DNA from: Gemmatimonadales bacterium
Lineage (GTDB): Bacteria > Gemmatimonadota > Gemmatimonadetes > Gemmatimonadales > GWC2-71-9
DNA: 45,223 nucleotides
NCBI GenBank assembly: GCA_013694695.1
Contig: JACDBX010000093.1
Location: 1 to 45,223 of the forward strand
Reading direction: 5' to 3'
Under the pieces are notes generated by a model. That model made no database searches. It had not been told where the DNA came from and saw nothing but the letters and a program-made list of their open reading frames with translations. Both the position numbers and the translations under genes were made by a program. Of this stretch, positions 21,855 to 33,360 are shown piece by piece; the first letter of the stretch is position 1, and each line of letters starts with the position of its first letter.

Positions 21855-21996
21855 CTGTCAACGTGATGTGCACGTCGCGACACGAAAAGATCTCGACACG
21901 ACTTCCGGCCCCGGCGCTTCCTCAGCGTGCGGGGCCGATTGCTTCCGTGCGATAATGCCGATTTTGACCCACCTTTCGCATTATTGCGAGCGTGCA

Positions 21997-22002
21997 TATA
22001 CT
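21997..22002 (+). promoter_or_regulatory. Candidate -10 box (TATACT) for the riboswitch-subtilase transcript
   Basis: TATACT lies 59 nt before the riboswitch P1 stem and would place the transcript start near 22009, giving a leader of about 183 nt. The -35 region (TTTCGC at 21974) is weak. It is the best promoter in the 337-bp gap between tRNA-Thr and the subtilase. Confidence 0.4.
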
Positions 22003-22060
22003 GTACGCTCCGTGGCGTGGACTTTGTCCTCCATTCCGCCGCGGTCCCAGGCAAACCCAT

Positions 22061-22144
22061 CTTCTTTCGAAACGGCGACCCGGCCGCAAGGCCGGTACGC
22101 AAAGCCAGGGGTCTCTCGCAGACAGCCCAGCTCCCGAAAAGAAG
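22061..22144 (+). ncRNA. Cyclic-di-GMP-I (GEMM) riboswitch
   Basis: The 84-nt element has the class I architecture. A closing P1 stem is formed by CTTCTTTCG (22061-22069) and CGAAAAGAAG (22135-22144), with one bulged A. A P2 hairpin CCGGCC-GCAA-GGCCGG (22080-22095) has a GNRA tetraloop. It is followed directly by the near-invariant TACGCAAAGCC (22096-22106). A second short hairpin (GGTCT...AGAC) is followed by AGCCCAGCTCCCG. These are established GEMM-I landmarks. It sits about 48 nt before the start of a secreted lipoprotein protease, a typical GEMM target. A downstream hairpin CCGGC...GCCGG (22151-22166) lacks a U-run, and CTTCC can pair weakly with the GGAG ribosome binding site, so control may act at translation. 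A GEMM-Ib (3',3'-cGAMP) identity is not excluded. Confidence 0.82.
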
Positions 22145-22191
22145 TTCTTTCCGGCAAAGACGCCGGCTGTACTTCCATCAAGGAGTGTGCT

Positions 22192-23586
22192 GTGAAGCGT
22201 CTGTCCCTCCCCGCGGTCGCGGCCATCGCCGCATTCGGTCTCCTCGGCTGCGCCGACGAGAATCCCGTTGCGCCCGAGAGTGCGCCATCATTTGTACCCC
22301 AGGCATCCGTGTCGGTTGACGCCGCGAGCCTCGATCGCCATCTCGTACTCTTCAATGGCAGAGGCGTCCCAGAGAGCTTCGCGGCGGACGTCGCCGGTCT
22401 GGGCGGCTCGGTCGTGTACAGCCACGCATCGGGCATTGCGTTTGTAAGCGGGCTGAGCGAGCCGGCGGCCGCCGACCTGGCAAAGCGCAGTGGGGTGGCC
22501 GAGGTCATGGCCGATGAAGCGGTCGAGCTGCTTCCCGTCAATGGTGTTCAGGTAGAGGCGGCAGACGCTACTCCCGCCAGCCCCGCAACTCCATCGCTGG
22601 CATTCTTTTATCCGCGGCAGTGGCACCTCCGCGCAGTGGGCGCGAATCAGGCCTGGGCGGCCGGTCGTCGTGGTTCATCTGCCGTGACTGTGGCGATCCT
22701 GGATACGGGCATCGACTACCTGCTCCCTGACCTCGTCGGCCGCGTCGATCTGTCGCGCTCGGCATCCTTCGTACCGAACGATGACTTGCTTGTGCAGGCA
22801 AACTTCCCGGGCAGGCATCCGGTCACCGACCTGCACTATCACGGCACACACGTCGCCGCGACCGTAACCAGCAACGCACTCGTCGCAGCCGGTGTGACCT
22901 CGGGCGTGACGCTCATCGGCGTCAAGGTGCTCGGCGCGAACGGAAGCAGCTTCGCCGGTAGTGTTATCGCGGGAGTTCTTTTTGCGGTGGACAACGGTGC
23001 GGATGTTATCAATATGAGCCTCGGCGGCGGGTTCTCGAAGGCCGGCAATGGCCGGTCGGTCGGGTTCATCAACCGCGTATTCAATGAGGCGAACCGCGAG
23101 GAAGTGACGGTCGTCGTCGCCGCCGGCAACGAGAGTGCCGACCTCAATCGCAACGGCAACACGTTCAAGTCGTATTGCGACGCGCCCAACGTGATCTGCG
23201 TCTCCGCGACCGGCCCGACGTCGCGCGCCAGCTTGATCGGTCCGTGGGCGAACATCGACGCCTTCGCTGCCTACAGCAATTTCGGTTCGGCGATCGGCGT
23301 CGCGGCACCTGGCGGGAACACGGGTGGTTCCGTGATCGCCGGCTGCGCCAAGACCAGCCTGACATTCAGGATTTGCGCAACGGGCAACTTCGTGCTCAAC
23401 TCCAACGGCACCAGCATGGCGTCGCCGCACGTTGCTGCGCTCGCTGCGCTGCTCGTCGAAGATGGCCTGAAGCCATCGCAGATTCGCGCCCGCATCCGGC
23501 AGAGTGCTGACGATCTCGGCGCTCCCGGGACGGACCCCTACTACGGCAGCGGCCGCATCAACATTCCGCAGGCGCTGGGCTTGTAA
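22192..23586 (+). CDS. Lipoprotein subtilisin-like serine protease (S8)
   Basis: This 464-residue secreted protease starts at GTG 22192, with AAGGAG 6 nt upstream. The signal sequence ends in the lipobox LLGC (AAFGLLGCADE), so it is lipid-anchored. Residues about 35-125 are an I9-type inhibitor propeptide (HLVLFNGRGVPESFAADVAGLGG...VAEVMADEAVELLP). The catalytic triad is Asp171 (AILDTGID), His217 (HGTHVAA) and Ser408 (NGTSMASPHVAA). Asn in VVAAGNES supplies the oxyanion hole. The length and domain order are normal. The gene is preceded by a c-di-GMP-I riboswitch and followed by a strong terminator, so it is a monocistronic, second-messenger-controlled gene. Substrates are presumably extracellular or surface proteins. 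Confidence 0.95.
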   Translation: MKRLSLPAVAAIAAFGLLGCADENPVAPESAPSFVPQASVSVDAASLDRHLVLFNGRGVPESFAADVAGLGGSVVYSHASGIAFVSGLSEPAAADLAKRSGVAEVMADEAVELLPVNGVQVEAADATPASPATPSLAFFYPRQWHLRAVGANQAWAAGRRGSSAVTVAILDTGIDYLLPDLVGRVDLSRSASFVPNDDLLVQANFPGRHPVTDLHYHGTHVAATVTSNALVAAGVTSGVTLIGVKVLGANGSSFAGSVIAGVLFAVDNGADVINMSLGGGFSKAGNGRSVGFINRVFNEANREEVTVVVAAGNESADLNRNGNTFKSYCDAPNVICVSATGPTSRASLIGPWANIDAFAAYSNFGSAIGVAAPGGNTGGSVIAGCAKTSLTFRICATGNFVLNSNGTSMASPHVAALAALLVEDGLKPSQIRARIRQSADDLGAPGTDPYYGSGRINIPQALGL

Positions 23587-24582: not shown

Positions 24583-26589
<2,007 letters not shown>

Positions 26590-26669
26590 GCGATATCCAC
26601 GTTGGGTGAAGAGATATGTAGGCTAGCCAGCTTGGCGGTCCCGTTCAAGGGCATTTGCTCCGGAACCGG

Positions 26670-27974
26670 TCAGCCGGGCGCGAGCTGCCGGGCGGGAGGC
26701 CCCGGGCGGGTGACGAAGAACGCCGACGAGCTGCGGGTCGACGGATGTGTTGTGTCATGACCCGACTGCCAGGCGGCGAGGAACGTTTCGGCGCGAGCCA
26801 CAGGGATCAGCGCCCAGACACTGCCTCCAAATCCGGCACCGAATGCCGAGGCCGCCACCGCGCCGAGTCGGATCGCGGAGTCCACCAGCGAGCGCGTTTC
26901 GGGTACCTGGTTGTCGAGGACAGTATCGGCCAGATGGTGCGAACGGGCAACGAGCGGCCCGATCGCCTCGATCCGACCCGCTGCCAGGCGAGCGGTGACC
27001 TGGGGGATGATCTCCAGCGACTCAGCGCGGAACTGGTCGAGCCGGCGATGCAGTGCCGGGGTGGCCGATGCGGGCAACTCGGCGCCAGACTCGATGCGTC
27101 GGAGCAGTGATTGATGGCCGTCGTCGATTGCCGGCCCGAGCGCATCGACCAACGCCCGGGTCTCCATCGCGAGGGCGTTGTAGCGATGCTTCGCGCCGGC
27201 GCTCTTCGATGCGCGGACGCCCGACATCGCGACGGCAAAGGTCCATTCTTCCGGTAGCGGGACGGTTTGTTGATGCTCGACCGGCAGGAACCGGAACTGC
27301 GAGAGCATCCCCATCTGGCTACAGAGGATTGCGGTGTGATCCTGGCTGCCGCCGTGGGTGCCGACGCCGTGGTCGGCAAGGAAATCGCCGAACGCCTTGC
27401 CGTTCTCCACAGCGCCGAGGTATCCGGCCAGCTCGAGGGGCGTGGGCAGCGCGGCTTGCCACGCCGGGTTGCGGTCGAGGTCATTGGCATCGGCGAGTGC
27501 GAGATAGCAGCCGATCACGAACGCACTCGACGACGAAAGCCCCGATGCCCGTGGCAGCGATGAGGAGAACGCGATGTCGGCACCGCAGGTGATACCCGCA
27601 TCGCGCACCAGCCGCCGAACTACCGAGATGGGATAGTTGATCCACTGGCCCGGGCGAGCCGGCGCATCCGCCGACACCGGCACAGAGGCCGGTCGTCGGC
27701 TCGCCGCGTCGAGCAGTTGAACCACGCCGTCGGTTCGGGGCCGCGCCATGATGTGAAAGCCACGCTCGACGGTGCAGAGCAGGGAGCGCCCACCGCCATA
27801 GTCGGTGTGCTTGCCCAGCACCTCGATTCGTCCGGGCACCCACCACGCAGGCAGCGAGGAACCCGGTTGAGCACCCAGCCCGAGCGCGCAGCGGCTGAAG
27901 TGCGACGCGGCGTCCGCTGCGGCGGATTCCGTGAGACCGATTCCCCGGAGTCGCTCAACCCAGCGTGAGCTCAC
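26670..27974 (-). CDS. Galactokinase-like GHMP sugar 1-kinase
   Basis: This 434-residue cytosolic kinase is predicted to phosphorylate a sugar at C1. Motif 1 is PGRIEVLGKHTDY (residues 47-59), which corresponds to PGR(V/I)NLIGEHTDY of galactokinases but has Lys55 in place of the Glu. Motif 2 is SSSLPRASGLSSSSAFV, the ATP-binding GLSSSSA loop. Motif 3 is ASAFGAGFGGSVWALI. The Asp of HTDY and the C-terminal glycine loop are intact. GalNAc kinases and galactokinases belong to the same family, and the operon (GH109, symporter, nucleotidyltransferase) suggests an N-acetylhexosamine or related sugar as substrate. The start overlaps the nucleotidyltransferase stop by 4 bp. The exact sugar is not known. 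Confidence 0.85.
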   Translation of the reverse strand: MSSRWVERLRGIGLTESAAADAASHFSRCALGLGAQPGSSLPAWWVPGRIEVLGKHTDYGGGRSLLCTVERGFHIMARPRTDGVVQLLDAASRRPASVPVSADAPARPGQWINYPISVVRRLVRDAGITCGADIAFSSSLPRASGLSSSSAFVIGCYLALADANDLDRNPAWQAALPTPLELAGYLGAVENGKAFGDFLADHGVGTHGGSQDHTAILCSQMGMLSQFRFLPVEHQQTVPLPEEWTFAVAMSGVRASKSAGAKHRYNALAMETRALVDALGPAIDDGHQSLLRRIESGAELPASATPALHRRLDQFRAESLEIIPQVTARLAAGRIEAIGPLVARSHHLADTVLDNQVPETRSLVDSAIRLGAVAASAFGAGFGGSVWALIPVARAETFLAAWQSGHDTTHPSTRSSSAFFVTRPGPPARQLAPG

Positions 27975-28792
27975 GGATCGACGCGCATCTGCGCGAGCTG
28001 CATCGCGACTGCAGCGATGTCACCGCGCGCTGAGAGGTCGAGGACGCCCGTCGCCGTCCTGACCAGGTGGCAGGGCATTCCACGCGTGACCGCGAGGCTC
28101 ACGGCGCCCGGCAACTCGTGCTCACCACGCTCGGAAATACCGACGTCGCGACATGCCGGAAAGATCCGGCTATCGAACCGCCAGAGGTTCATGCTCACCG
28201 GTGCGCCGGAGGGCAGCACCGCGAGCATCGCGTCGGTCGGTTTCTCCACCACGTCGAGGAGCAGTCCACTGGAGTCGGTCACCAAGCGCGCGAACGCGCG
28301 CACCCGGTCGGCCGGGAAATTGCTGCGTTCCACCAGCACGTCTGCATCGAACGCCGCGCACGCCGGGCCCTCGACCCGGGCGAGTTCGGCAAGCAGCGTG
28401 ATGTCGTAGAGGTTGTCGGCATTGAGCACCAGGAACGGCCCATTGCCGGCCCATTCGATGGCGGTCAGGACGGCGTGAGCGGTGCCGGTCGGTTCCTGCT
28501 GCAGGATGGTCGTGATCGCAACTCGTCGGGGAGGTCGACGCGAGAGGTGCGACGCGATGGCGTCGCGTCCTGGCGGGACCACGATCCCGACGCGCCGGAT
28601 GCCGGCATCGGCGAGCGATGTGAGGATGTGGTCGAGCAGCGGGCGCCCGCGTGCATCGGGAACCATCGACTTCACGCCGAGCGCAGCGAGTCGTTCCTGC
28701 TCGGCATCGAGCGGCGCGCCCGGATCGGGGCGCTGCATCCGGGTCCCACGCCCGCCGGCCAGCAGCAGCGCCGAATCGGTCGGCGCCGTCAC
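27971..28792 (-). CDS. NDP-sugar nucleotidyltransferase
   Basis: The 273-residue enzyme of the NTP_transferase family couples a sugar 1-phosphate with an NTP to form an NDP-sugar. ALLLAGGRGTRM (residues 8-19) is the signature nucleotide-binding loop. VLNADNLYDITLL carries the metal-binding Asp, TGTAHAVLTAI lies in the usual base/sugar contact region, and VVEKPTD is the conserved catalytic-site segment. GTG 28792 is chosen because it overlaps the stop of the symporter gene by 4 bp; the open frame upstream is antisense-free reading inside that gene and is rejected. Its partner is presumably the GHMP kinase whose product it would activate. It has no acetyltransferase domain, unlike GlmU. Confidence 0.85.
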   Translation of the reverse strand: MTAPTDSALLLAGGRGTRMQRPDPGAPLDAEQERLAALGVKSMVPDARGRPLLDHILTSLADAGIRRVGIVVPPGRDAIASHLSRRPPRRVAITTILQQEPTGTAHAVLTAIEWAGNGPFLVLNADNLYDITLLAELARVEGPACAAFDADVLVERSNFPADRVRAFARLVTDSSGLLLDVVEKPTDAMLAVLPSGAPVSMNLWRFDSRIFPACRDVGISERGEHELPGAVSLAVTRGMPCHLVRTATGVLDLSARGDIAAVAMQLAQMRVDP

Positions 28793-30561
28793 GATGCGGG
28801 CGCGCTGCTCCAGAGCTGGCGGACGATGCGAGTGAGCAGCGTGCCGCTGACGACGAACACGATCCCCCAGAAGAGCGCGGTGCCGTGGTGTCCGTACAGG
28901 AACGACCCGGTGCCGAAGAGCGCGCCATACACCGTGAGGCAGCCCAGCATCCACGCGAGGAACGCCTGCGGCAGCGAATCCTGTGAGGGCGGAAGCCCCG
29001 ACTCGGCGCGAATCGCCGACCATCCCGGTCCGGCGGGCCGCACGGTTCGGTAGAACGACAGCAGCTTCTCGCGATCGGTGGGCGAAGTCACCAGCGCTGT
29101 CACCACCCACGCCACCGTGGTGATCGCGACCGTGGCAAGCAGCGGCACGTGCGCCGGCATCACCACGCCCTGCTTGTGGGCGATGAAGAAGCCGAGCGCC
29201 GCGCTGAACGACGCCACCATCGCCGCGATCTCGCACCAGGCATTGATGCGCCACCAGAACCAGCGCAACAGGTAGAGCAGGCCGGTTCCCGCGCCAATGG
29301 ACAGCAGGAGCTGGAACGACTGCTGTGCGGTCTCCAGCACGAAGGTGAGGGCCCCGGCGATCGCCATCAGCGACACCGTCATGATGCGGCCCATTTTCAC
29401 GTAGTGGCGCTCGTCCTCCCCGGGGCGCACGAACTGTCGCCAGAAGTCGTGCACCAGGTACGACGCCCCCCAGTTGAGGTGCGTCACGATCGTCGAGACG
29501 TAGGCGGCGAGCATCCCCGCGATCATCAGCCCGAGAAAGCCGTGCGGCAGGAACTTGAGCATCGCCGGGTACGCCATGTCATGGCCGAGCAGGCGCGGGT
29601 CGACATCGGGGAAGGCGATCCGGATGTCTTCGAGCGTTGGGAACATCACCAGTGACGCGAGCGCCACGATAATCCACGGCCACGAGCGCAGGGCGTAGTG
29701 CGCCACGTTGAACAGCAGCGTGCCCGCCAGCGCATCGCGCTCCGACCGGGCGGCCAGCATTCGCTGTGCGATGTAGCTCCCGCCACCCGGTTCCGCGCCG
29801 GGGTACCACACCGACCACCATTGGATGGTGAGCGGGATGATGAATATCGAGAGCGTCAATCCCCAGTTCCCAAAGTCAGGAACCAGCGCTATGGTCTGCG
29901 CGGGAAGCTGCGCCACGAGGCCGGAGAGCCCGCCCACCTCGGGTTGCGCCAGTGCGAACCACGCTGCAGCGAACGCACCGGCCATCGCGATTCCGAACTG
30001 GAAGAAGTCGACGACCAGCACGCCCCAGAGGCCCGATGTGGCGGCGAAGGCGATGTTGATCACCGCACAGATCAGGAGCGTCTGTCCCATCGGCCAGCCC
30101 AGCACGACATTGGCGATCTTGGCTGCAGCGAGGTTGACGGTAGCCATGATGAAGCAGTTGAAAACGAGCCCGAGGTAGATCGCGCGAAAGCCGCGCACCA
30201 ACCGTGCCGGGCGCCCGCTGTAGCGGATCTCGTAGAACTCCAGGTCGGTCAGCACGCCGCTCCGCCGCCACAGGCGAGCGAAGAAGAACACGGTCATCAT
30301 GCCGGTTAGCAGGAATGCCCACCACTGCCAGTTGTTGGCGACGCCGCCGGTGCGCACCAGGTCGGTCACGAGGTTCGGCGTGTCGGTGCTGAACGTGGTT
30401 GCCACCATCGACACGCCGATCAGCCACCAGGGCGCTGACTGTCCCGACGTGAAGAACTCAGCGGTGCTGGTGCCGGCACGTCGTGCAAGCAGCACCGGTG
30501 GAATGAAGCAGAGCGCGATCGTGACGATGACGATTGTCCAGTCGAGCGTATTCGGGTTCAC
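28789..30561 (-). CDS. Sodium:solute symporter (SSS family), predicted sugar transporter
   Basis: The 590-residue inner-membrane protein has about 13-14 predicted helices. LDWTIVIVTIALCFIPPVLLARRAGTSTAEFFTSGQSAPWWLIGVSMVATTFSTDTPNLV is the typical SSS N-terminus with the unwound first helix and the STxTP-like sodium-site segment. LEFYEIRYSGRPARLVRGFRAIYLG is also highly conserved. SSS members of this branch often carry sugars such as glucose, galactose or N-acetylated amino sugars. The GTG start (30561) overlaps the stop of the GH109 gene (GTGA), and its own stop overlaps the next gene. Transport of the sugar released by the GH109 enzyme is inferred from this coupling. Confidence 0.9.
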   Translation of the reverse strand: MNPNTLDWTIVIVTIALCFIPPVLLARRAGTSTAEFFTSGQSAPWWLIGVSMVATTFSTDTPNLVTDLVRTGGVANNWQWWAFLLTGMMTVFFFARLWRRSGVLTDLEFYEIRYSGRPARLVRGFRAIYLGLVFNCFIMATVNLAAAKIANVVLGWPMGQTLLICAVINIAFAATSGLWGVLVVDFFQFGIAMAGAFAAAWFALAQPEVGGLSGLVAQLPAQTIALVPDFGNWGLTLSIFIIPLTIQWWSVWYPGAEPGGGSYIAQRMLAARSERDALAGTLLFNVAHYALRSWPWIIVALASLVMFPTLEDIRIAFPDVDPRLLGHDMAYPAMLKFLPHGFLGLMIAGMLAAYVSTIVTHLNWGASYLVHDFWRQFVRPGEDERHYVKMGRIMTVSLMAIAGALTFVLETAQQSFQLLLSIGAGTGLLYLLRWFWWRINAWCEIAAMVASFSAALGFFIAHKQGVVMPAHVPLLATVAITTVAWVVTALVTSPTDREKLLSFYRTVRPAGPGWSAIRAESGLPPSQDSLPQAFLAWMLGCLTVYGALFGTGSFLYGHHGTALFWGIVFVVSGTLLTRIVRQLWSSAPAS

Positions 30562-31922
30562 GCGCCCGTCCGGGGACGCTGCCAGCCACCGCGGGTGAAG
30601 TCGGGGAATGTCATCGGGGCGCTCCGGCGCTTGAGTGATGCCTCGCTGAGTGGCCAGGGCGCGCTCCATGCCGCCGCGTCGTATACGTCGAAGTCGGGCG
30701 GCGTGCCATCTCGCATGCACTCGACAAGCCGGAACGCCATGATGTAATCCATCCCGCCGTGGCCGCCTTTCGCCCTGGCGATTTCGCCGACGCGCTGCCA
30801 CAGCGGATGGGTGTAATCGGCCTTGAAGTCCGCCACCGGCCGGAACTTGTGCCCCCCCTCCTGGCCGTCGAAGTAGAAGCGACCCGGGTAGTCCTTGAAG
30901 ACGCCCTTGGTGCCGCGGACCGAGTTCAAGCGATCATACGGCGTGGGGAGCGTGACGTTGTGCTGCAGCGTGATCGTCCGACCACGCACCGTCTTGATCA
31001 GCGAGGTATTGATGTCCCCGGCGACGTAGCGCTCGCGCCACTTGGGTGAGTCACGCGGGACATGCGCCTCGCGCCACTCGGTGAGGCCCCGCTCGGGGGT
31101 CGACATCGACACCAGGTAGTCGAATCGATCGCCCTTGTGGATGTCGAGATACCACGCCACCGGGCCGAGCCCATGCGTCGGGTAGAAGTTGCCGTCACGC
31201 CGGGTGTGCGGAGCGCGCCGCCAGAGCCCCTCGTCGCGGTCCTCGAAGAGGATACTGCGCAAGTCGTGGATGTAGGCCGCCTCCGCGTACAGCATCTCGC
31301 CGAAGCGACCCTGCTTGACCATGTTGTCGACCAGCATCTCGTTGAAGTCGTAGCAGCAGTTCTCCATCATCAGGCAATGACGCCGCGCCTTCTCCGATGC
31401 CCGCACGAGTTCCCAGCACTCGTCGATCGTGCTCGCCGCAGGCACCTCGGTGGCGGCGTGCTTGCCGGCCCGGAGCGCCGCGAGGCAAACCGGCACGTGC
31501 CACTCCCACGGTGTCGCGGTGTAGACGATATCGATGTCATCGCGCTCGACGAGTTTCTCGAAAGCATGATCGCCGCTGGTGAACAGCGCCGGATCGCCCT
31601 TGCCGGCGGCGCGCACCCGGGCTGCCGCCCGCTCCGCCTTCTCCGGCACGATGTCACACAGAGCCGTGATGGTGACGCCGTCGATCGCAAGCAGCTCGCC
31701 CAGCACCGACGTACCGCGCAGCCCCGTACCCACTATCGCCACCCGCACGGTCTCGTGCCGATCGAAGGGCACACCCATCATGGAGTCGGCGCCGGGTACT
31801 GGTGGCATTCCGGCGGCCGCAACATCGGGTGCGTGGGTGAGTGCGTAGGCGGCACCGGCGACACCGGCGGCCTTGAGCAGGTCGCGGCGGGTGAGCGCCT
31901 CGTCGGGTGGGTGGTCTGACAT
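30558..31922 (-). CDS. Tat-exported GH109 family protein (alpha-N-acetylgalactosaminidase-like)
   Basis: The 454-residue protein combines a Gfo/Idh/MocA NAD-binding fold with GH109 features. Twin arginines (Arg12-Arg13 in TRRDLLKAAG) precede a hydrophobic core, indicating folded, cofactor-loaded export by Tat. VAIVGTGLRG (Gly65, Gly67, Gly70) is the NAD loop. TPWEWH (137-142), TEV with Glu159, the MMENCCYDFNEML block, YPTHG with Tyr247 and His250, the TPYDRL segment, and AKGGHGGMDY near the C-terminus align with the alpha-N-acetylgalactosaminidase of Elizabethkingia as I recall that sequence. Such enzymes use NAD+ in an oxidation-elimination mechanism. ATG 31922 restores the Tat signal. It is the first gene of the four-gene operon. 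A plain oxidoreductase role cannot be fully excluded. Confidence 0.85.
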   Translation of the reverse strand: MSDHPPDEALTRRDLLKAAGVAGAAYALTHAPDVAAAGMPPVPGADSMMGVPFDRHETVRVAIVGTGLRGTSVLGELLAIDGVTITALCDIVPEKAERAAARVRAAGKGDPALFTSGDHAFEKLVERDDIDIVYTATPWEWHVPVCLAALRAGKHAATEVPAASTIDECWELVRASEKARRHCLMMENCCYDFNEMLVDNMVKQGRFGEMLYAEAAYIHDLRSILFEDRDEGLWRRAPHTRRDGNFYPTHGLGPVAWYLDIHKGDRFDYLVSMSTPERGLTEWREAHVPRDSPKWRERYVAGDINTSLIKTVRGRTITLQHNVTLPTPYDRLNSVRGTKGVFKDYPGRFYFDGQEGGHKFRPVADFKADYTHPLWQRVGEIARAKGGHGGMDYIMAFRLVECMRDGTPPDFDVYDAAAWSAPWPLSEASLKRRSAPMTFPDFTRGGWQRPRTGA

Positions 31923-31966
31923 CGGGAATCCGTGGCGGAAGGAATGCGCCGCTGGGGGCACGCTGG

Positions 31967-31972
31967 ATTCTA
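31967..31972 (-). promoter_or_regulatory. Candidate -10 box (TAGAAT) of the GH109 operon
   Basis: TAGAAT on the minus strand lies 44 nt before the GH109 ATG, in the 103-bp divergent gap shared with the APC permease. Transcription would start near 31960. No clear -35 or sugar-regulator operator is seen. Confidence 0.35.
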
Positions 31973-32006
31973 CCCCGAAACCGCGCGGATCGGGAGCGCG
32001 GCGCGC

Positions 32007-32012
32007 TATCTT
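32007..32012 (+). promoter_or_regulatory. Candidate -10 box (TATCTT) of the APC permease
   Basis: TATCTT ends 13 nt before the ATG at 32026, so the leader would be about 7 nt, too short for a ribosome binding site. The -35 is weak. Confidence 0.35.
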
Positions 32013-32025
32013 GGGGCATCCTGCC

Positions 32026-33360
32026 ATGCTGATGCCACAGCCTCGTCGCCCGCTCGGATTCGCTGCCGCCTTCGCCACGGTGGTCGCCAACATCGTTGGT
32101 ACCGGTGTATTCACCACCCTCGGTTTCCTGGTGCTCGAGACCACCGACGGATTCACGCTGCTCGCACTCTGGGCGGTCGGCGGGCTCATCGCGCTCGCGG
32201 GCGCACTGAGTTACGGGGAGCTTTCTGCTGCCATCCGGGGGTCGGGCGGGGAATACCGGTTCCTCGGCAGGATATATCACCCCGGTGTCGGAGCCGTGGC
32301 CGGTTGGGTGTCGGTTGCCGTGGGGTTCGCGGCTCCGGTCGCGCTGGCCGCCATGGCGCTCGGTCGGTACGGCGGCCCGCTGGTGCAGGTACCGGGACGC
32401 ACCCTCGCCATCCTCGCCATCGTGGGCGCCACGGCGATTCATTCGCTCGCGCCCGCAGTGGGCGGCAAGGTGCAGGTCGCCGTGACATCGCTCAAGGTGC
32501 TGCTGATCGTGGCCTTTGTTGGTGCGGGACTCGCCAGCGGAGCCGAATCGGGGCTCTCGTTCGCGCCGACCTCCGCCTCGCTTGGTGAGATTGCCAGCGG
32601 GCCGTTCGCGATCTCGCTCATCTTCGTGTCCTACGCTTACTCCGGCTTCAATGCAGCGGCATACTTTCAGGGTGAGGTGGTTGACGCCGAGCGCAACGTG
32701 CCGCGCGCCCTTGTCCTGGGCACGCTGCTCGTCACCGTGCTGTACGTGGCGCTCAACTGGATCTTCCTCCGCACCACCCCGATCGGCGAGATGGCGGGAA
32801 TGGCGGAGTTCGGGTCGGTCGCGGCGGAGCGAATCTTCGGCGCCGCCGGCGGTCGGGTGATGAGCGGCGTGATTGCGCTGCTGCTGATCTCGACGGTGAG
32901 CGCGATGACGCTCGCGGGCCCCCGAGTGATCGAGTCGATGGCCGAGGACATCCCCGCACTCAGGCCACTGGCGCAGCGGAACGCCGCCGGAGCGCCCAGC
33001 CGTGCGGTGCTGCTGCAGGGCGGGATCGCACTCGCGTTTGTCCTCACCGATTCATTCGAGGGGGTCCTAACCTATGCCGGTTTCACCCTCACGCTCTTCA
33101 CCCTGCTGGCCGTGGTGGGCGTGGTGGTGCTCCGGCGGACCCATCCCGATCTCCCCCGGCCGTACCGCGTGTGGGGCTATCCACTCACGCCGCTCTTCTT
33201 CGTCGGTTTCTCGCTGTGGACCTTGCTGGTGGTGATCCGCGACCGGCCGATGGAGGCGGTGGGAGGGGCGGTGACGCTGGGGGTGGCGGCGCTGCTCACC
33301 TGGCTGGTCGGGGACGGCGATCCCGGAAACAACAAACCCGGAGCGGATCGCCCCGGGTGA
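32026..33360 (+). CDS. APC-family amino acid permease
   Basis: This 444-residue inner-membrane transporter has twelve or so predicted helices. LGFAAAFATVVANIVGTGVFTTLGFL is the first helix with the GxG unwound substrate site of the APC superfamily. LWAVGGLIALAGALSYGELSAAI, FVSYAYSGFNAAAYFQGEV and FTLTLFTLLAVVGVVVLRRTHPDLPRPYRVWGYPLTPL are also typical of the LAT-like branch, with the conserved C-terminal RPYRVWGYP. The substrate is an amino acid or polyamine, not resolved. ATG 32026 follows a TATCTT box; an ATG two codons later is an alternative. It diverges from the GH109 operon and is convergent with the NlpC gene. Confidence 0.9.
   Translation: MLMPQPRRPLGFAAAFATVVANIVGTGVFTTLGFLVLETTDGFTLLALWAVGGLIALAGALSYGELSAAIRGSGGEYRFLGRIYHPGVGAVAGWVSVAVGFAAPVALAAMALGRYGGPLVQVPGRTLAILAIVGATAIHSLAPAVGGKVQVAVTSLKVLLIVAFVGAGLASGAESGLSFAPTSASLGEIASGPFAISLIFVSYAYSGFNAAAYFQGEVVDAERNVPRALVLGTLLVTVLYVALNWIFLRTTPIGEMAGMAEFGSVAAERIFGAAGGRVMSGVIALLLISTVSAMTLAGPRVIESMAEDIPALRPLAQRNAAGAPSRAVLLQGGIALAFVLTDSFEGVLTYAGFTLTLFTLLAVVGVVVLRRTHPDLPRPYRVWGYPLTPLFFVGFSLWTLLVVIRDRPMEAVGGAVTLGVAALLTWLVGDGDPGNNKPGADRPG
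33327..33358 (-). terminator. Candidate intrinsic terminator of the NlpC gene
   Basis: Read on the minus strand, ACCCGG (33358-33353) pairs with CCGGGT (33341-33336) around an 11-nt loop, followed by TTGTTGTTT. It lies inside the 3' end of the convergent permease gene. Confidence 0.45.

Follow-up and report, generated by a model that had tools for sequence, protein, structure and literature searches.

Why would a bacterium join, in one tightly packed operon, genes for an exported glycosidase, a symporter, a nucleotidyltransferase and a kinase of galactokinase fold? The question is raised by a locus of a Gemmatimonadales bacterium (assembly GCA_013694695.1, contig JACDBX010000093.1), found in a stretch of 45,223 nucleotides that we refer to as the window. 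On its minus strand lie, in order of transcription, genes for a GH109-family enzyme, an SSS-family sodium:solute symporter, a sugar-1-phosphate nucleotidyltransferase and a GHMP kinase. We lean towards the view that this unit takes up and activates N-acetylgalactosamine (GalNAc), or a close N-acetylhexosamine (HexNAc), via its 1-phosphate.

The proposed route begins outside the cell, where the Tat-exported, NAD+-dependent GH109 enzyme would free terminal GalNAc from a glycan by transient oxidation at C3. The SSS symporter would import the freed sugar with sodium, the kinase would phosphorylate it at O1, and the nucleotidyltransferase would then make a nucleoside diphosphate (NDP) sugar, probably UDP-GalNAc. 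As in a Leloir-type route, two exits would be available to this product, one into glycans and the other through 4-epimerisation to N-acetylglucosamine (GlcNAc) phosphate and a NagB-type deaminase encoded elsewhere. In this scheme we infer the identity of the sugar, its anomer, the nucleotide, the direction of flux and the epimerase.

The operon and its exported and membrane proteins

The GH109-family enzyme (454 aa, ATG start) is encoded at 30558-31922, the symporter (590 aa, GTG start) at 28789-30561, the nucleotidyltransferase (273 aa, GTG start) at 27971-28792 and the kinase (434 aa, GTG start) at 26670-27974. All three junctions are 4-bp GTGA overlaps in which a start codon runs into the preceding stop codon (30558-30561 between GH109 and SSS, 28789-28792 between SSS and nucleotidyltransferase, 27971-27974 between nucleotidyltransferase and kinase). 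An initial annotation of this DNA had given the same four genes, order, ends and overlaps, and the minus-strand sequence and Pfam bear these out.

The first protein carries the Glyco_hydro_109_C domain (PF21252, 172.7 bits against a cut-off of 27) together with GFO_IDH_MocA in Pfam, and its best PDB matches are 6t2b (AmGH109A, E 7.4e-103) and the alpha-N-acetylgalactosaminidase 2ixa (E 5.1e-73). NCBIfam TIGR01409 detects a twin-arginine translocation (Tat) signal at 21.1 bits (cut-off 16.7), with the motif RRDLLKAAG at residues 12-20 (31863-31889, minus strand). For AmGH109A, the available text of PMC10755693 proposes Tyr226 for proton transfer at C2, His259 as acid/base at the glycosidic bond and His404 as base/acid at C3. 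Alignment to 6t2b shows that all three are retained in the window's protein, as Tyr217 (31272-31274, minus strand; the offset was counted by hand), His250 (31173-31175) and His388 (30759-30761). Also retained are Glu149, Tyr179, Arg213, Tyr225 and His228 of 2ixa, all five of which we take to matter in that enzyme. The Tat-exported GH109-like enzyme of the initial annotation is thus confirmed by its signal, its domain and its three proposed catalytic residues, and the protein is, judged by sequence, a probable Tat-exported alpha-N-acetylgalactosaminidase.

The second protein belongs to the SSS family by its SSF domain (PF00474 in Pfam, 97.2 bits against a cut-off of 22.8), and its nearest solved relatives are sodium/sugar cotransporters. 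With the stricter NCBIfam model TIGR00813 it scored 111.1 bits, below the cut-off of 184. Three of the 17 loci compared, from genomes of the same taxonomic order, encode the symporter and the nucleotidyltransferase as one continuous open reading frame (ORF) of 871-873 aa (L040:10640-13255, minus strand; L041:6105-8720, plus strand; L088:1155-3776, plus strand). This natural transporter-nucleotidyltransferase fusion hints at coupled import and activation.

A distinct kinase branch and its partner nucleotidyltransferase

The kinase exceeds the Pfam cut-offs for GHMP_kinases_N, GHMP_kinases_C and GalKase_gal_bdg (37.9, 33.9 and 32 bits), which places it in the GHMP superfamily, and its predicted structure (predicted local distance difference test, pLDDT, 93.3) has the galactokinase fold. 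With the NCBIfam galactokinase models it fell far short, scoring 72.6 of 226.65 bits for TIGR00131 and 79.1 of 385 for another. For this reason the earlier description "galactokinase-like kinase" is valid for fold and superfamily only, and galactokinase identity falls away. A plain galactokinase in a Leloir galactose operon was rejected for the window kinase on the same grounds, as TIGR00131 is missed by 154 bits and the setting is that of GH109 and SSS genes.

What sets this kinase apart is a charge-swapped substrate motif, Glu51...Lys55 (27810-27824, minus strand; alignments A1 and A3), which reads PGRIEVLGKH where related kinases read PGRVNLIGEH; we call the two types GKH and GEH. In A1, 26 of 28 rows have Lys where galactokinases have the motif-1 Glu, L048 and L049 being the two GEH rows that keep the ordinary motif. 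Alignment A3 is A1 without these two rows, excluded beforehand, and without L027 and L046, whose N-termini in A1 are doubtful start choices; here Glu51 and Lys55 are invariant in 24 of 24 rows, at positions where the ordinary motif has Asn and Glu. GKH kinases also have an insertion ahead of the catalytic GGxxD, with Glu190 and Gly192 invariant in A3. Asp212 (GGSQD; 27339-27341, minus strand), at the position that we take to be catalytic in galactokinases, is invariant in all 28 rows of A1. In a tree of 46 of our 48 loci (L041 and L031 were left out) the GKH kinases are monophyletic with support 100/100 and fill 37 of the 46 rows. Searched with the A1 profile of the branch, its two GEH rows included, the PDB returned human GALK2 first (2e-57), ahead of galactokinases. 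GALK2 (2a2c/2a2d) shares the GHMP galactokinase fold and the IGTxGGxxD-type catalytic loop, but it has GEH rather than GKH and a gap where the GKH branch has its ENGxxFG insertion. No match to plasmid relatives of the kinase was found in 72,556 plasmid records.

Because the NCBIfam galactokinase cut-off is missed, the motif is swapped and an insertion precedes the catalytic Asp, this kinase may act on GalNAc or on another sugar. The two swapped residues might pair in a salt bridge or make a new contact with the substrate. The motif-1 Glu of galactokinases contacts O6 of galactose, and a Lys in its place would suit a unit that handles an acidic or C6-modified hexosamine (GalNAc-uronic acid, for example) or a uronic acid, with Lys55 paired to the acid group and the matching NDP-sugar as product. 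The invariance of Glu51 and Lys55 in A3, set against Asn and Glu in the GEH relatives, fits this idea, as do a zebrafish glucuronokinase with a putative pyrophosphorylase domain (in which little pyrophosphorylase activity was found) and an Arabidopsis galacturonic acid kinase, both described in the accessible part of PMC3938481. However, the change of Asn to Glu comes four residues before that of Glu to Lys, so that a salt bridge may suffice. The window's GH109 protein keeps the HDLR residues of 2ixa, and no clear acid-binding change was seen by eye in this loop of the 2ixa alignment, though there is an extra Arg236 beside the conserved Arg235; kinases with the ordinary GEH motif, moreover, share the GH109/SSS setting. 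An acidic sugar therefore seems to us unlikely. Sulfoquinovose, the substrate considered for Lys55 by way of GH188, was rejected because the enzyme matches GH109. GH188 sulfoquinovosidases are likewise NAD+-dependent oxidoreductive glycosidases with a fold related to GH109, but in the available text of PMC10755693 they are 15% identical to 6t2b, the structure that the window's protein matches at E 7.4e-103.

We suggest tentatively, and as a rather doubtful extension, that the GKH kinases might be a new substrate class with a re-charged pocket for a modified amino sugar, and that with the nucleotidyltransferase they might form an import-coupled NDP-sugar activation module at the membrane.

The nucleotidyltransferase belongs to the NTP_transferase superfamily (PF00483 in Pfam, 61.9 bits against a cut-off of 21.2). 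With its predicted structure (pLDDT 95.6), Foldseek returned UDP-glucose pyrophosphorylase 8b6d as the best match (E 2.8e-19), then RmlA, with ST0452 lower. Its matches to 16 NCBIfam families are all under the respective cut-offs, among them GlmU (32.1 of 366.85 bits), rmlA_long (71.1 of 320.25), AglF (94.3 of 400) and MurU (27.6 of 250).

The weak similarity to MurU bears on the suggestion that the locus recycles N-acetylmuramic acid (MurNAc), with the kinase and the nucleotidyltransferase in the roles of AmgK and MurU, and the symporter importing MurNAc. The MurNAc transporter of Tannerella forsythia is reportedly an SSS protein. That a MurNAc transporter is known in this species (PMC5790795, in the portion available) would agree with this suggestion, as would an NlpC/P60 gene (33382-33966, by Pfam), which is the second gene upstream of the operon. 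Yet the MurU cut-off is missed by a wide distance, the kinase is of GHMP and not APH type, and GH109 members free GalNAc-type sugars. The NlpC/P60 gene is clustered only in close relatives (8 loci). Furthermore, no MurQ-, NagZ- or AnmK-type family was found among the 45 neighbour proteins scanned with Pfam (5 from the window and 10 in each of four further scans), a minority of the 204 complete neighbouring ORFs listed. MurNAc recycling is accordingly very improbable.

In one group of loci a second nucleotidyltransferase gene is found near GH109 (L042:11921-12910; L045:15706-16689; L093:10228-11235, with an adjoining cupin gene in L093). Its product is rmlA_long/Arch_glmU-like, under the cut-offs, by NCBIfam on L042 and L093. 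The L042 protein has a 60% relative on another contig of the window genome (L102:1031-2011), where the preceding ORF is cupin-like by eye.

Conservation of the unit

Is the arrangement kept in related genomes? We surveyed 298 sampled Gemmatimonadota genomes with E cut-offs of 1e-50 for the kinase profile, 1e-35 for the nucleotidyltransferase profile and 1e-20 for GH109. The kinase was found in 105 genomes and the nucleotidyltransferase in 104, and 94 had both (hypergeometric 2e-52); in 84 of these 94 the nucleotidyltransferase gene stands immediately before the kinase gene (within 400 bp, same strand). GH109 was present in 180 of the 298 genomes and in 78 of the 94 with the pair, against 57 expected. 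Among the matches listed, 39 of 48 kinase genomes have it on the strand of the kinase and no more than 10 kb away, a count that rests on listed coordinates (88 kinase genomes have GH109, 40 of them without listed coordinates); four of the 39 (G014, G091, G180, G181) carry kinases of the GEH or GDH type.

The 48 loci used for closer comparison were hand-chosen and include near relatives; families were placed there by tblastn, since gene calling at these loci misses some genes. GKH kinases occur in 39 of them, with the nucleotidyltransferase within 400 bp in 32 and, within 10 kb, SSS in 24, GH109 in 22 and either of the two (same strand) in 30. The full order with its three 4-bp overlaps is intact in five of 30 loci (the window, L021, L022, L023 and L033), and other relatives have the same order with different spacing, a changed order or one member absent; L047, for instance, is without the SSS gene. 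In the close relatives L025, L026 and L034 a gene for about 1150 aa stands between SSS and nucleotidyltransferase (L025:5689-9150; L026:5778-9179; L034:5712-9179), of Sortilin/VPS10-BNR type by Pfam in L026 and by BLAST cluster in the others. Since it is conserved across relatives, the four-gene arrangement is not due to chance. The check called for by the initial annotation, that the genes stay together in related genomes, thus came out positively for the adjacent kinase and nucleotidyltransferase, with GH109 and SSS as members that are not obligate.

One of the intact loci, L022, is on a contig labelled Acidobacteria (CALFMR010000525.1). GH109 and SSS of this copy of the operon are 72-77% identical to those of the window, and in the tree the L022 kinase groups within the window's genus; the contig is possibly mislabelled or from a contaminated bin.

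A parallel version of the unit has kinases with the ordinary motif. Eleven genomes have a kinase match without a nucleotidyltransferase of the window family, and in the seven of these that were read (G014, G068, G089, G091, G180, G181, G237), as well as at L049 of G017, the kinases are of GEH type, or GDH in both copies of G181. Eight of the nine GEH/GDH loci, which are not independent (L081 and L082 are near-identical, and L078 and L079 come from one genome), have GH109 or SSS on the same strand no more than 10 kb away. At L081 the order is a different nucleotidyltransferase, SSS and kinase. A 38% relative of this nucleotidyltransferase occurs in L077, there before an SSS gene; the L081 protein itself is 29% identical to part of the window protein. 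A nucleotidyltransferase, a symporter and a galactokinase-fold kinase thus come together again with members of other subfamilies, which speaks for a genuine functional unit.

Around the operon itself, a divergent amino-acid permease gene lies 109 bp upstream (its listed ORF begins at 31873, and its start is probably at 32032), and a Ser/Thr protein kinase gene with Sel1 repeats follows on the same strand 80 bp past the kinase stop. A scan of 26400-32200 gave no promoter and one terminator, where shuffled sequence gave means of 0.6 and 2.0. Elsewhere in the window, an ORF at 21868-23586 (plus strand) resembles, by eye, a secreted subtilisin-type serine protease and lies just downstream of two tRNA genes.

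Genes for GH29-type alpha-L-fucosidases occur near the pair at L035:6972-8285, L036:6777-8159, L037:12001-12987, L038:1803-3191 and L030:9213-10208 (by Pfam in L035 and L030, by BLAST cluster in the others). L-fucose salvage was rejected as a function of the unit, as these loci are a minority.

Fate of the sugar and relation to known systems

The initial annotation had the sugar released outside the cytoplasm, imported and activated for glycan building instead of being degraded. Outside release, import, phosphorylation at C1 and nucleotidylation stand, and we infer them from family, active-site residues and context; the exclusion of degradation does not. In Bacteroides thetaiotaomicron a locus that combines GH109 with a GalNAc-1-kinase (BT4240) is catabolic, and growth with GalNAc as the carbon source requires the kinase, according to the available text of PMC11992087. 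On a different contig, whose end truncates it, the window genome (2.8 Mb, 93.8% complete) has a gene for a NagB/PIG-L-type deaminase/deacetylase (NF002557, 505.8 bits against 384; NagB part, 257 against 236.9; the PIG-L part recognised at its start by eye). The best match to NagA in this genome is below the cut-off (31.7 of 225.65 bits), as is that to glmU with NCBIfam (69.9 of 366.85); UDP-GlcNAc synthesis there may use divergent or separate proteins, or glmU may lie in the missing 6% of the genome. Some relatives carry a NagB/PIG-L fusion near the pair. It comes directly before the pair in Planctomycetota L028 and L029, precedes it by 1.5 kb in L038 and is 7.8 kb off in L037 (calls by BLAST cluster, with Pfam on the L029 and L048 members only).

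These same observations would agree with a purely catabolic GalNAc pathway, in which the NDP-sugar would serve solely as a stage for epimerisation toward NagB. This alternative concerns the fate of the sugar alone and overlaps with the reading that we favour. However, the NagB/PIG-L gene lies outside the window's operon, and no epimerase or phosphomutase was found among the 45 scanned neighbours; we regard a solely catabolic role as possible, if on the unlikely side. An NDP-sugar can feed both glycan building and catabolism.

Several observations weigh against the uptake and activation of GalNAc via its 1-phosphate. Compared singly with the PDB, the window kinase matched galactokinase 6tep (6.1e-18) just before GALK2 (2e-17), and Foldseek of its model placed galactokinases first, with GALK2 at rank 17 and 21% identity. 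The GKH branch has Lys for the motif-1 Glu of galactokinases and GALK2, and so departs from the GALK2-type GEHxDY motif. All three GEH kinases tested (L048, L077, L083) pass TIGR00131, at 269.7, 262.4 and 255.8 bits, and galactose is therefore possible for these. Asn260 and Tyr263 of vSGLT, which presumably have a role there, are not retained in the aligned SSS protein. The nucleotide used cannot be read from the sequence. In the window genome the best galE match lies below its NCBIfam cut-off (163.2 of 262.3 bits).

The distribution of the unit adds to these points. At nine of the 39 GKH loci, several of them on short contigs, neither SSS nor GH109 lies on the same strand inside 10 kb (L024, L027, L028, L030, L031, L032, L036, L037, L038), and of five Planctomycetota loci (L027-L031) only L029 has GH109. 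Sixteen of the 94 genomes with the kinase-nucleotidyltransferase pair lack GH109 at E 1e-20. The last count would also suit a "GH109" protein that is a periplasmic sugar oxidoreductase and not a hydrolase, the other three genes salvaging free sugar, and GH109 does belong to the Gfo/Idh/MocA superfamily. Given the 172.7-bit score of its C-terminal GH109 domain and the retention of all three residues proposed as catalytic, we consider this improbable.

How does activation of GalNAc via the 1-phosphate compare with pathways already described? The Bifidobacterium LNB/GNB pathway (NahK, GalT, GalE) is reported to follow the same logic, from HexNAc to HexNAc-1-phosphate to UDP-HexNAc. It is said to differ in its kinase family, in using a UDP-Glc:HexNAc-1-phosphate transferase rather than a pyrophosphorylase and in having no GH109 step. 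NahK is cited in the available text of PMC11992087, whose polysaccharide utilization locus (PUL) BT4240-50 resembles the operon in combining a GH109 alpha-GalNAcase, a transporter gene (there BT4242-MFS) and a GalNAc-1-kinase, with 1- rather than 6-phosphorylation. That PUL differs in its APH-motif kinase, MFS transporter, SusC/D-like proteins and M60-like protease, and in the same text no nucleotidyltransferase was seen in the account of the locus ("nucleotid" occurs once). The window's operon is not a PUL of this type, since its kinase is of GHMP type and no SusC/D family was found among the 45 scanned neighbours. Fkp, the L-fucokinase/GDP-fucose pyrophosphorylase, is said to be a single bifunctional protein acting on L-fucose, with another kinase motif. 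It otherwise offers the same pairing of a sugar-1-kinase with a pyrophosphorylase that turns free sugar into NDP-sugar (PMC6468028 and PMC11982464, in the parts available).

Neither this gene set nor the kinase branch was described among the matches listed from open-licence PubMed Central, which holds neither subscription papers nor preprints, and the available part of a 2025 review of gut amino sugars (PMC12118421) is without the terms GalNAc-1, UDP-GalNAc and N-acetylhexosamine 1-kinase. The earlier remark that no named bacterial pathway has this exact set fits the open-licence literature, with the proviso that kinases of other families serve the same reaction logic, as in Bifidobacterium NahK and BT4240-50. 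That logic is already known; what is new is the combination of known enzyme kinds and a distinct branch of sugar kinases.

The analysis defines a monophyletic branch of galactokinase fold whose altered substrate motif is open to mutational test, and it points to a candidate 1-phosphate route for GalNAc-type sugars that roughly one in three of the Gemmatimonadota sampled, and some Planctomycetota, may use.

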